32,754 bases of DNA from an uncultured Synechococcus sp. GTDB lineage: Bacteria > Cyanobacteriota > Cyanobacteriia > PCC-6307 > Cyanobiaceae. Numbering within the stretch: the stretch's first letter is position 1; each line of letters begins with the position of its first letter. Positions 1 to 4,865 of the stretch are shown in pieces. The notes under the pieces were generated by a model, which ran no database searches, was not told the DNA's origin, and saw only the letters and a list, made by a program, of their open reading frames with translations. The DNA lies in assembly GCA_913048995.1 (NCBI GenBank), contig CAJWXK010000007.1:1-32754 (forward strand), in the 5' to 3' direction. The translations under genes and the position numbers were made by a program.

Positions 1-2015
1 AGTGCGTTGTGCTTGATGAATGGCACGAGCTCCTGGGCAGCAAGCGCGGCGTCCAAGCTGAACTGGCACTTAGCTGGTTGCGTCAGCAGCGCCCGGCACT
101 TCAGACCTGGGTGATCAGCGCCACGATCGGCAACCTTGATGACGCCGCTCGCCATGGGCTGGGGCTGGGGATCGGGTCAGACGATCCGGAGTTGATCACC
201 AGCACTGAGCCCAAACAGCTGCAGATCCGCAGCGTGATTCCTGAGACGATCGATGGCTTCCCCTGGGCCGGACACCTAGGACTGCGGATGTATCAGCAGC
301 TGGTGGATCGCCTCTCTCCGGCCGTCAGCACTTTGCTGTTCACCAATACCCGGAACCAGTCGGAGCGCTGGTTTCAGTGCCTGCGCTACGCCTGCCCAGA
401 GATGGAAGGCCTGCTGGCGCTTCACCACAGCGCTATTGACCGAAACGAACGTGAACTCATCGAGGCGGGTGTCAAGGCAGGAGAGTTGCGCTGGGTGGTC
501 TGCACCAGTTCCCTGGATCTCGGAGTTGATTTCCAGCCCGTTGAGCGGGTGGTGCAGATCGGCAGTCCCAAGAACTTGGCGCGGCTGCTGCAGCGCGCTG
601 GCCGTTCGGCTCACTTGCCCGGAGGCACCTCTCAGGTGCTGTTCATGCCCACCAATGCCCTTGAGCTTCTGGAGGTAAGTGCTGTACGACGCGGCCTTGA
701 GGCCGGGCTGGTGGAGAGCCGCAAACCACCGCGGCACGCCCTGGATGTCTTACTGCAGCACCTGACCACGCTGGCCTGCGGCAGCGGCTTTGAGCCAATC
801 AGCACGTTTGAGACCGTGCGGAACACCGCCTCCTTTGCTGCACTCAGTGAAGAGGACTGGAACTGGTGCCTGCGGTTTCTTGAGGTGGGTGGCGATTGTC
901 TGAGTGCTTACCCGCGCTATCGCAAGCTCGAGCGCGATGAGAACGGTTGCTTCCGCATCAGCAGCCAGAGCATCGCCCGACTCCATCGAGTGAACATCGG
1001 CACGATCACCTCAGCGTCAGCCATCCGGGTGCGGTTTGTTCGTGGTGCCGTGCTGGGCCATGTGGAAGAGAACTTCATCAGTCAGCTCAAGCCAAAAGAT
1101 GTGTTCTTCTTCGCCGGCCGGCAGCTGGAATTCGTTCGCCTGAGGGACATGACGGCCTATGTCAAGGCGTCGACAAAGAAGAGCACGACGGTCCCGGCAT
1201 GGGCCGGTGGTCAGATGGCCCTCTCCGACTTGCTGACCGAGCACCTGCGCCGGGAAGTTGCCCGGGCCGCCAACGGCGAACTCGACACTCCCGAGCTGAA
1301 GGCCCTGGCACCGCTTTTCTACCGCCAGCAGGAGCTGTCGATGATTCCCAGGGCGGACCAACTACTTGTTGAAACCTGCACCACCCGTGAAGGCAGCCAT
1401 CTCTACATCTATCCCTTTGAAGGGCGCTTTGTGCACGAGGGACTGGGCTTTCTGCTGGCGTCCAGACTCACTGATCTCGAGAAGGGGACGATCACCGTCT
1501 CGGTCAACGACTACGGATTTGAGCTGCTGGCTCCGCGCAGTTTTCCAATCCAGGAGCTGGTGGACGACCATCTTCAGGATCTACTCAGCCTGGATGATCT
1601 AGAAGCGGACCTCGAGCGGGCACTGAATCTCTCTGAACTCTGCCGCCGACGTTTCCGTGCAATCGCCCAGGTGGCCGGTTTGACAGTGCAAGGCTTTCCA
1701 GGCTCGAGCAAGACCACAGGGCAGTTGCAGATCAGTGCGGCGCTGATCTACGACGTTTTCGAACGCCATGAACCTGAAAATCGACTACTGCTTCAGGCCA
1801 GGGCCGAGGTGCTCGAAGAGCAGCTGGAGCTACCTCGCCTGAGACAGGCTCTCGAGCGCATCGCCACCAGTGAGGTGATTCACAGCCCAATAGCTCGGCC
1901 TGGCCCGCTGGCCTTTCCTCTCCTGGTGGAGCGGCTCAACAACCGGATGAGCAATGAGAGCGTGCTCGAGCGGGTGCAGCGCATGATGCGGGAAGCCGAA
2001 AAGCATGAAGGTTGA
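1..2015 (+). CDS. Ligase-associated DEXH-box (Lhr-like) DNA helicase, C-terminal part
   Basis: This is the 3' part of an SF2 helicase; the N-terminus with Walker A lies before the window. The frame opens directly on the DEWH box (motif II). SATIGN (motif III), FTNTR (motif IV), CTSSLDLGVDF (motif V) and QRAGRSAH (motif VI) follow in order. Beyond about residue 230 lies a long region resembling the winged-helix and C-terminal domains of Lhr-type helicases. Relatives form the 'ligase-associated' DNA damage cluster with an ATP-dependent ligase, a nuclease and the PdeM phosphoesterase; pdeM is indeed two genes downstream. The stop codon overlaps the next gene by 4 nt (TTGA), implying one operon. 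Helicase identity is very sure and the ligase-associated subtype fairly sure, because of the pdeM context. Confidence 0.9.
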   Translation, partial: CVVLDEWHELLGSKRGVQAELALSWLRQQRPALQTWVISATIGNLDDAARHGLGLGIGSDDPELITSTEPKQLQIRSVIPETIDGFPWAGHLGLRMYQQLVDRLSPAVSTLLFTNTRNQSERWFQCLRYACPEMEGLLALHHSAIDRNERELIEAGVKAGELRWVVCTSSLDLGVDFQPVERVVQIGSPKNLARLLQRAGRSAHLPGGTSQVLFMPTNALELLEVSAVRRGLEAGLVESRKPPRHALDVLLQHLTTLACGSGFEPISTFETVRNTASFAALSEEDWNWCLRFLEVGGDCLSAYPRYRKLERDENGCFRISSQSIARLHRVNIGTITSASAIRVRFVRGAVLGHVEENFISQLKPKDVFFFAGRQLEFVRLRDMTAYVKASTKKSTTVPAWAGGQMALSDLLTEHLRREVARAANGELDTPELKALAPLFYRQQELSMIPRADQLLVETCTTREGSHLYIYPFEGRFVHEGLGFLLASRLTDLEKGTITVSVNDYGFELLAPRSFPIQELVDDHLQDLLSLDDLEADLERALNLSELCRRRFRAIAQVAGLTVQGFPGSSKTTGQLQISAALIYDVFERHEPENRLLLQARAEVLEEQLELPRLRQALERIATSEVIHSPIARPGPLAFPLLVERLNNRMSNESVLERVQRMMREAEKHEG

Positions 2016-2707
2016 GGCTGCAGCCCTTCCAGGTCAGCTCCCACTGGTTCCAGGCCCTGCGCTTTCGCCATCTGGCAGTGATTCAGCTGCTGGAGCTGCT
2101 GCTTCTGAGTGCTCCGCTGTCAGATCCGGATCGCTTCTCTGGACGGCTGCTGCTGTTCTCGGTACTTGTTCCGCTGCAGTTCTTCAATCGCCTGCTGGGA
2201 TTACGCCTCTCGGGGGAATCACGGCCATGGTTAATTGTGTACAGCTGGATCTTTGCCGTTCTCACCGTGATGTGGGGCGTGCTTAGTTTTGTACCGGGAC
2301 TTGAGCAAGCCAACATCTGGCTCAAACCAGCCTTCTACGCCAGCGTGGCCTTCGTATCGGCACTGGTGCTGCTGCGCTTCATCCGAAACATCTGGATCGC
2401 CCAGGACGTCCATGAGGACGTTCTGTTTGGGGTAGTGATCTGCTACGCAACATTGACCATTTTGGGCTTCGAGCTGCATGGGCTGAACCATCATCTGAAT
2501 CCGGCGGCCTACCGATTGCAAAGCGGCATCCCCCATCACTCCCAACTGATGTTTCTCAGCATTGGTGGCACCACCACTGCCGGAGCCCTTGTGAGACTTG
2601 AGAACAACTGGGCTCAGCTGATCTTCTATTTCCAGTCCCTTTTCAGCCAAATTTTTCTCGTGGTGTTTGTGGCCCGCATGATCGGCCTACACACCGGGCG
2701 GCGATGA
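2012..2707 (+). CDS. Polytopic membrane protein resembling a two-TM potassium channel, with degenerate selectivity filter
   Basis: A 231-residue membrane protein with about five or six hydrophobic segments, near residues 23-35, 45-63, 72-92, 108-125, 136-153 and 204-224. The end has the layout of the bacterial ion-channel domain: helix, re-entrant loop, then a last helix ending VARMIGLH. The loop reads SIGGTTTAG at residues 184-191, where K+ channels have T-x-G-Y-G, so the filter is not canonical. The start is TTG at 2012, overlapping the helicase stop (TTGA); no upstream ATG exists in frame and a later GTG would cut off the first helix region. The gene overlaps pdeM by ATGA. It may be a channel of altered selectivity or a non-conducting relative. 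Gene reality is sure; the channel assignment is moderate. Confidence 0.7.
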   Translation: MRLQPFQVSSHWFQALRFRHLAVIQLLELLLLSAPLSDPDRFSGRLLLFSVLVPLQFFNRLLGLRLSGESRPWLIVYSWIFAVLTVMWGVLSFVPGLEQANIWLKPAFYASVAFVSALVLLRFIRNIWIAQDVHEDVLFGVVICYATLTILGFELHGLNHHLNPAAYRLQSGIPHHSQLMFLSIGGTTTAGALVRLENNWAQLIFYFQSLFSQIFLVVFVARMIGLHTGRR

Positions 2708-3408
2708 GCGAAAAGAAGGAGAAAGAAGGGATCGGCTGGGGGAAGCAGAAACTGGAGTTCCTGCCCCAGCGTGCCCTTTGGGTTGCCAACCAGAGGTTGT
2801 TGCTCATAGCGGATGTGCATCTGGGCAAGGCAGAGCACCTTCAGAGCCACGGCATTCCCCTACCCAGTGATGGTGATGCCGAGAACATCAGCCGCATCGA
2901 GAAACTGGTTGATCAGCACCAGCCCGAAGAGCTAGTGATCCTTGGGGATTTGATCCACCATCCCCGCAGCGTCAGTTCCCTGCTCAGGCAACAGATCACT
3001 GCGCTAGTAGAACGCCTCGATTGCAAGGTCAGCTGGATTGAGGGAAATCACGACCGCGGCAGCAGCCTGGGCCCACTTCAAAGGGACGCATCCCAGTCAA
3101 GACAAGGACTCTGGCTAAGCCATGAACCAGAAGTCCCACCAGAAGGGCTCCTCAACGTATGCGGACACTTGCACCCTGTGTCCATCTTGAGACAGTCGAG
3201 TGATCGATTGCGGCTACCGTGCTTTTCATTCGTCCAGACAATCCCGAGGCTGGTATTACCGGCCTTCGGACGTTTGACTGGCGGCCAACCTGCTGAGCGG
3301 ACTTCAAAGCAATGGGTCGTCGCGGACGGAACAGTGCTGGCATTGCCGAAGTCTCTCCGGCCCGGGGAGCATCCCGCACGATGGCGTCAAAGCAGTCGCA
3401 GCGCCTGA
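2704..3408 (+). CDS. pdeM: PdeM-type metallophosphoesterase (ligase-associated DNA damage response)
   Basis: A 234-residue calcineurin-like phosphoesterase with all metal-binding motifs: IADVHLGK (D37, H39), GDLIHH (81-86), GNHDR (114-118), LSHE (138-141) and CGHLHP (153-158). This order and spacing fit the PdeM group that is co-inherited with a ligase-associated DEXH helicase, and such a helicase lies two genes upstream. The likely role is a DNA-repair phosphodiesterase or endonuclease; the substrate cannot be read from sequence. The ATG at 2704 overlaps the preceding stop (ATGA). The last about 28 nt overlap the start of the next gene, which is in another frame. Confidence 0.88.
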   Translation: MSEKKEKEGIGWGKQKLEFLPQRALWVANQRLLLIADVHLGKAEHLQSHGIPLPSDGDAENISRIEKLVDQHQPEELVILGDLIHHPRSVSSLLRQQITALVERLDCKVSWIEGNHDRGSSLGPLQRDASQSRQGLWLSHEPEVPPEGLLNVCGHLHPVSILRQSSDRLRLPCFSFVQTIPRLVLPAFGRLTGGQPAERTSKQWVVADGTVLALPKSLRPGEHPARWRQSSRSA

Positions 3409-4865
3409 ACGACAACCGGCCGCTCAATCTCAATAAGACACCCAACCGTCGCTGGCGCTGGCTTGCTTGGTGTGCAGCAGGTTTACCACTGGCGGGTTTC
3501 ACCTTTCTGCTGGCCATCGCGCCACCGAGTCCAAGACGTGAGCTCGGCTCTACCCACCCGACAGCAGAGACTATCGATCCAGTCACGGCGACCAGCGACA
3601 CCTTCCGCTACCTCCCCGATCAGGAGGTCTATGCCCTCGATTTCGATCCGCGCAAGGTTCGCTTCGATCTATTCGAGGGTTGGGACCGAGAGCAGGATGC
3701 TTACGCCGACAGCAGCGGTCTGGCATACATCAGTGGGCCCATGTATGAGCGCCACTACGAGGCCGATGGCAGTGAAGTGACAGTCCCACTGGGGGACATC
3801 AAGTTTGGCAACCAGGTTTGGCGCGGCCGCAACCGTTCAGCATCCCAACAGAGGGCCTACATCGGTATCACCCGTGATGGCACTGTCGAATTCAGTTACG
3901 GCGAACTCACCCCGGCACGGGCCCGACGCTACGAGACTTTTATCGGCGGCCTGCACGCTCTCTACAACGACTTTGAGCAGCCTCCTAGCGGCTATAAGGG
4001 CGCCTACTCGGTGTCGATGGGGCAGCGGATCCGCTACTACCTACCTCGAATCCGTATGGTCATGGGCCTGCGCAGCGACGGCCGTCTTGAGGTGTTCATG
4101 AGCCGCGACGGCCTCACCCTCGAGCAGACCAAGGATCTGTCCCGCGCCCGTGGTCTGGTGGCGGCTTACATGCCCGACCACGCATCCAAGAGTCGCTTCA
4201 TCATCCCTGGCACCAAGGGCTTCACCGAGGAAGACGCCAACTGGATCAGCGGCGGAGCCACCAGCTTTGTGCACGTTCCTTACATGCTCAAGCTGGAGCG
4301 TCGCCCCTATGACCTTCAGGGCTCGTTACTGGCCAATCTCAACCCACTGAATCGGGAAGAGGGATGCGGCAACCCAATCAGCTGCAGCCTGCAGATGGGG
4401 ACCAAGGTGACTGACCGCGCCCTAGCCGGGCTCAATCGCCTGATGGAGCAGGGTGTGGTGCCGCTGGCGCGGCTGATCTGGAGTCCCACCCAGGGCCCGG
4501 CACCCACGAGGCCAGCCCAGAATGCGCCCCTCCGTGAACCGCCGATCACCGCCGATCCCACCGAAGCTTTGACCGCTGCACCCCCACCATCCGCACCACA
4601 ACTCCAACGCGACGACACAGCAGCCGTGCGTCCTGTAGTTCCAGCCCCACTACCACCAGATCTGCCTGAACCTGAGACCTATAACGAAAGCCTTGATCCC
4701 GCCTACGACTCAGGCGAAATGCTGGCGCCCGTCTATGACCCAGATCTCTCGATCTCAGTGGGCAGTGACAACCCGCTTGTACCCGAGCCGCCGACCTTGC
4801 CACCTGCCAGCCCACCACCCACTCAAGAGTGGAACGAACCAACTGATCTGCCCTTCCTGCGTTAG
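3381..4865 (+). CDS. Conserved hypothetical membrane-anchored protein with Pro-rich C-terminal tail
   Basis: The start is set at ATG 3381 (MASKQSQ...); the frame stays open back to 3312, but that stretch lies inside pdeM. The protein is about 494 residues. A basic N-terminus is followed by one hydrophobic segment (about residues 25-45, WLAWCAAGLPLAGFTFLLAIA), then a soluble domain of about 330 residues rich in Tyr, Arg and Gly. A Pro/Ala/Thr-rich tail of about 130 residues ends the protein. Sections such as GLAYISGPMYE followed by an IGITRDGTVEFSYG stretch loosely recall the phosphodiester-glycosidase (NAGPA) fold, but I cannot confirm this. The tail suggests cell-wall spanning or a flexible periplasmic linker. 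Its stop overlaps the convergent CBS gene's stop by 4 nt. Function unknown. Confidence 0.75.
   Translation: MASKQSQRLNDNRPLNLNKTPNRRWRWLAWCAAGLPLAGFTFLLAIAPPSPRRELGSTHPTAETIDPVTATSDTFRYLPDQEVYALDFDPRKVRFDLFEGWDREQDAYADSSGLAYISGPMYERHYEADGSEVTVPLGDIKFGNQVWRGRNRSASQQRAYIGITRDGTVEFSYGELTPARARRYETFIGGLHALYNDFEQPPSGYKGAYSVSMGQRIRYYLPRIRMVMGLRSDGRLEVFMSRDGLTLEQTKDLSRARGLVAAYMPDHASKSRFIIPGTKGFTEEDANWISGGATSFVHVPYMLKLERRPYDLQGSLLANLNPLNREEGCGNPISCSLQMGTKVTDRALAGLNRLMEQGVVPLARLIWSPTQGPAPTRPAQNAPLREPPITADPTEALTAAPPPSAPQLQRDDTAAVRPVVPAPLPPDLPEPETYNESLDPAYDSGEMLAPVYDPDLSISVGSDNPLVPEPPTLPPASPPPTQEWNEPTDLPFLR

Follow-up and report, generated by a model that had tools for sequence, protein, structure and literature searches.

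A putative filter-altered pore-loop protein encoded within a ligase-associated DNA repair operon of Synechococcus

The described systems closest to the locus analysed here are a set of repair genes and a family of membrane channels. The ligase-associated DNA-damage response cluster comprises a ligase (TIGR04120), a DEXH helicase (TIGR04121) and the endonuclease PdeM (TIGR04123). It is the host operon of the membrane gene studied here, although this gene accompanies the cluster in one genus only. The channels are the short six-transmembrane-helix (6TM) cyanobacterial proteins of the Ion_trans_2 family (PF07885; here L009-L018 and L150). These have 220-250 residues, six transmembrane helices and a pore helix, as the membrane protein does; their S5-P-S6 region aligns with it over 141 columns, and the C-terminal end, VARxxxLH, is similar. 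They differ from it in the selectivity filter, canonically TxxTxGYGD but TTTAG-ALV in our protein, which falls below the Pfam threshold. SynK of Synechocystis is likewise a 6TM cyanobacterial pore-loop channel, but it is reported to have the GYGD filter and to carry K+ (PMC2853561), and the likeness does not imply a shared subfamily.

Layout of the locus

The window is the whole 32,754-nucleotide stretch that was analysed, and comes from a fragmented Synechococcus genome (G000) belonging to the genus that includes RCC307 (G002). The relevant features are as follows.

3..2015, + strand: final 670 codons of the ligase-associated DEXH helicase (TIGR04121), the contig beginning within the gene; 879.4 bits against a cut-off of 850
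2012..2015, + strand: TTGA overlap of helicase stop and membrane-gene start, kept in L005, L006 and RCC307
2012..2707, + strand: membrane gene, encoding a 231-residue 6TM protein with a predicted pore loop, very probably a divergent homologue of cyanobacterial Ion_trans_2 channels
2387..2704, + strand: predicted pore domain of the membrane protein (M1, pore helix, loop, M2), residues 126-231
2534..2560, + strand: predicted pore helix, residues 175-183 (AlphaFold model)
2570..2593, + strand: rebuilt filter TTTAGALV, residues 187-194, aligned with TLTTLGYGDI of canonical relatives
2704..2707, + strand: ATGA overlap of membrane-gene stop and pdeM start
2704..3408, + strand: pdeM, ligase-associated endonuclease (TIGR04123); 191 bits against a cut-off of 150
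3312..4865, + strand: conserved 517-residue protein, the right-hand anchor of the locus

The operon is the ligase-associated DNA-damage response cluster, its helicase, PdeM and ligase all being found. The ligase scores above cut-off on another contig of the same genome, C35, which breaks off just after it in the 5' part of a helicase gene, and which would adjoin the contig of the window. The membrane gene starts with TTG and overlaps its neighbours by 4 nt at both joints (TTGA at 2012-2015, ATGA at 2704-2707), as the preliminary description had reported. Both overlaps are present also in L006 and L005, and RCC307 (L008) has TTGA and GTGA. The earlier suggestion that the three genes are probably translated together is supported. 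A consensus scan of positions 1500-3600, a weak test, gave no promoter-like site.

The membrane protein is 93% identical to its counterpart in TMED19 (L006), 86% to that in an uncultured Synechococcus MAG (L005) and about 48% to that in RCC307. The gene is under strong purifying selection and is the most constrained of the three by dN/dS, with values of 0.091, 0.064 and 0.070 in three pairs, compared with 0.196 and 0.117 for the helicase (two pairs) and 0.354 for pdeM (one pair). Such low values (0.06-0.09) indicate a real gene and no chance reading frame.

It is worth adding that the gene for the 517-residue protein has a conserved MGRR start lying within the 3' end of pdeM (window 3312-3408), giving a 97-nt out-of-frame overlap. 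This start looks real, because the same N-terminus is found in S. lacustris, where pdeM is missing. A divergent paralogue of about 305 residues, 43-45% identical over the matched part, is encoded on the opposite strand just upstream of the ligase (G000 C35:12579-13232; G001 C22:14425-15078; G002 C1:933172-933816), so that the repair cluster is flanked by two paralogues.

Homology, filter and predicted fold

Direct scans of the window protein gave no Pfam or NCBIfam channel match (no PF07885), and a sequence search of the PDB also gave none. In a phylum sample of 386 genomes, the matches were the genome of the window itself and ten remotely related channel proteins (E 1e-7 to 6e-4). These ten are membrane proteins of about 220-241 residues whose filters are canonical (TLTTLGYGDI, for example), and the four of them that were run through Pfam are all assigned to Ion_trans_2. 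When the five members of the window's family were compared by hhalign with eight of the ten canonical relatives, the two sides aligned with 97% probability and an E of 1.1e-10 over 141 columns including the pore; sequence identity with the canonical profile is 18% across the aligned region. The five members each reach 32-45 bits with this profile, and none of 200 hydrophobicity-preserving shuffles of each exceeds 12.7 bits. Searched against the PDB, the profile also finds K+ channels, among them KirBac and two-pore types. The canonical relatives behind it (alignment A3) were picked by similarity to the window's family and are thus the nearest canonical ones by construction. A 41-sequence canonical profile had been cut from an alignment that also contained the window's family, and the A3 profile was relied on instead. 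Profile and hhalign results together point to sequence homology with the Ion_trans_2 channels, and we consider it very probable that the membrane protein is a highly divergent homologue of the short 6TM cyanobacterial members, with a pore-loop fold.

The preliminary description had noted that the loop SIGGTTTAG replaces the K+ filter, and this is borne out: the loop spans residues 183-191 and contains no GYG. Aligned to TTLGYGDI, the members read TTTAG-ALV (window and TMED19), TTTAG-SLI (L005), TTTLG-GPI (RCC307) and STTAG-TVI (S. lacustris). In all five, TTxG is kept, one residue is dropped and Y-G-D is gone, so that the K+ channel signature TxG[YFL]G is absent throughout. In SynK the single change of GYGD to GAGD served as a non-conducting mutant (PMC2853561). 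Given this precedent and the loss of Y-G-D, a K+-selective pore is unlikely, and judging from the sequence the membrane protein in all likelihood lacks canonical K+ selectivity.

The AlphaFold model, built from five sequences (pLDDT 78.5), has predicted transmembrane helices at residues 18-33, 42-66, 71-93, 104-129, 135-162 and 199-228, together with a pore helix at 175-183 and a re-entrant loop. Foldseek matches to the whole model all had E > 0.1, none reaching E<=0.001, and in VIA channels and GPCRs tie (Z 6.3-7.7). The case for a channel fold is therefore carried by the pore domain. Taken alone, this domain matches only K+ channels or ionotropic glutamate receptors among the 50 Foldseek matches listed (probability up to 0.99, E 0.14-0.78, TM about 0.6-0.67 to KcsA). 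Similarly, the 50 VIA matches listed are K+ channels (Kir, KATP, KirBac, hERG, GORK; Z 8.2-9.2), with the exception of one entry whose title says no more than 'CryoEM structure of a transmembrane protein'. The channel-like fold proposed earlier for residues 130-231 is thus predicted here for residues from about 126 to 231, as the succession of M1, pore helix, re-entrant loop and M2 that typifies the pore-loop superfamily; the structure check on this region, which might have returned no pore-loop fold, returned one in the predicted models.

Could the protein be a polytopic membrane protein that resembles a channel by chance? The missing Pfam channel match and the tie with GPCRs would fit such a resemblance, but the shuffle-controlled profile scores, the hhalign result and the pore-domain fold lists, made up of pore-loop channels, speak against it, and we regard it as very unlikely.

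The membrane gene and the repair genes

Within the family, five of 400 genomes carry the membrane gene, namely four of a single genus and that of S. lacustris. A scan of a genome-contig collection gave four loci (L005-L008). Viral contigs gave 282 pattern matches, none confirmed as a relative, and a literature search, with subscription papers mostly outside its coverage, found no report of the gene. It is present in four of the six genomes of the window's genus. The other two (G004 and G005) are 74% and 82% complete and hence poor evidence of absence; neither has pdeM above cut-off, and the contig of G005 stops 359 bases into the helicase gene.

The junction between helicase and pdeM was compared at 59 pdeM loci, these being all others in the family above cut-off, with the window excluded; 9 kb upstream was requested, the stretch being shorter in one of the 18 loci without an upstream helicase and in five others. 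The membrane gene lies in this junction at three of the 59 loci, all of one genus, which agrees with the earlier remark that ligase-associated clusters do not normally include a channel-like protein. The junction is closed at six loci, with the same ATGA overlap in G036; other genes intervene between helicase and pdeM at a further six; and at 18 no helicase is found in the upstream stretch. Clearly the membrane gene does not follow the cluster across lineages. In L060 a single GST gene occupies the exact place of the channel-like gene, and in L055, from another genus, this place is taken by the gene for a UPF0114 membrane protein, the names GST and UPF0114 coming from Pfam on one example each. 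A GST-like gene stands directly upstream of pdeM at 26 of the 59 loci (for example L060, L084 and L093).

S. lacustris (L007 = G429 = G488) is the informative case. Its membrane gene lies between nadA (named by Pfam in L071) and the gene for the 517-residue protein, which anchor the locus in the window's genus too, and the exonuclease-ligase-helicase-pdeM stretch is missing there, the label exonuclease resting on position and weak Pfam metallo-beta-lactamase matches only. Genome-wide, neither helicase (best score 70 bits, cut-off 850) nor pdeM nor ligase exceeds its cut-off. Other genomes of its genus (G443, G459 and G503) have no membrane gene, and in them nadA is directly next to the gene for the 517-residue protein; on a different contig, G459 has a ligase above cut-off with a nuclease-like gene next to it. 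The preliminary description had asked whether the gene would be found mostly away from helicase and pdeM. By count it is not, as four of the five carriers have it adjoining these genes, but the exception carries more information than the count.

Two readings of the association have to be weighed. According to one, the protein serves the DNA-damage response as a sensor or channel in the membrane, made together with helicase and PdeM and linking ion flux or membrane state to repair. The 4-nt overlaps at both joints, conserved in four genomes, are what such a link would predict, and the scan without a promoter-like site weakly agrees. However, S. lacustris retains the gene without helicase, pdeM or ligase, none of the 56 other pdeM loci in other genera has such a gene, and the same junction is taken elsewhere by unrelated genes. 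The membrane link to the DNA-damage response suggested earlier is therefore not supported, and we regard it as improbable. The other reading is that the gene is a passenger in the repair operon and no working part of the repair pathway. We judge this probable, because S. lacustris retains the gene without the repair genes, because junctions elsewhere are closed or hold GST or UPF0114 genes, and because only five of 400 genomes carry it, with the proviso that a single S. lacustris genome (95% complete) carries the argument, and that the overlaps kept in all four carriers of the window's genus are also expected under a functional link.

As a passenger, the membrane gene would be a lineage-specific insertion at helicase and pdeM that borrows the transcription and coupled translation of the operon. 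The simplest history would be that the gene entered a closed junction in the common ancestor of the window's genus and S. lacustris, and that S. lacustris then lost the surrounding repair genes, an order which is suggested by one genome.

A second filter-less clade and possible roles of the protein

Genomes of the family also encode another, separate clade of Ion_trans_2-like 6TM proteins, in which TTxG is kept and YGD is lacking (L181-L199, alignment A5; the copy in RCC307 is L184 and that in G005 is L185). At its 19 loci the motif is TT[VILT]G or TSVG, and the Y position that comes next holds S, T or A, except in L196, which is cut off there. These proteins have the same size as the window's family and form a commoner class, but are located elsewhere in the genome and are separate in the tree, where the window's family has a long branch to itself (100/100), away from the second clade (100/99). 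The tree gives no support to a single origin of the two filter-less groups, and an AU test does not reject their joint clade (p-AU 0.157).

On balance we incline towards describing the window protein as a filter-altered pore-loop protein that is not K+-selective and travels as a passenger in the repair operon. It may form tetramers, either by itself or together with a canonical paralogue, and such a tetramer would not conduct K+ selectively. Its role might be that of an accessory (regulatory or silencing) subunit of canonical channels or that of a cation pore with weak selectivity, serving ion or osmotic homeostasis, and the choice of the former over the latter is roughly an even call.

A non-conducting subunit that co-assembles with a canonical 6TM channel encoded elsewhere, and modulates it, is a tentative proposal made by analogy. 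Suitable partners exist in the form of canonical TTVGFGDI paralogues in RCC307 (L150), G003 (L159) and G001 (L168), and the proposal is also favoured by the conservation of TTxG and M2 while the upper-filter residues differ among members. The accessory reading is strengthened by the second clade, where a canonical TTVGYGDI channel gene lies directly downstream, overlapping or abutting, in three of the 19 loci (L186, L187 and L193). However, for the window's family the canonical gene is not adjacent in any genome seen, identity to the canonical profile is only 18% over the aligned part, the other match listed in the window's genome is a 56-residue frame where no ORF passed, and the function is argued from a different clade.

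Alternatively, the protein may form a homomeric cation channel whose selectivity has changed (non-selective, Na+ or H+) and which uses the TTxG ring that it has kept, along with the conserved Glu and His residues nearby (E154, H156 and H176). The invariance of T188, T189, G191, E154, H156, N159 and H176 in the five members favours this, as does the purifying selection, but the residues after TTxG vary (AL, SL, GP, TV), unlike those of a tuned filter, and this possibility appears somewhat doubtful.

A broader and speculative proposal is that picocyanobacteria hold a recurring filter-less 6TM class with TTxG kept, selected as accessory subunits or re-purposed cation pores, in which the window's gene would be an extreme lineage coupled to a repair operon, tying channel stoichiometry to the expression of repair genes.

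The finding is ordinary for DNA repair and moderately interesting for channel evolution: the underlying channel family is known and the lineage narrow, and it is the alteration of the filter that is new. Overlapping genes are often read as a sign of shared function, and a membrane gene that has outlasted its partner genes is a useful counter-example. If the filter-altered channels truly act as accessory subunits, silent channel subunits would have a counterpart in bacteria, and in marine phototrophs of very high abundance.
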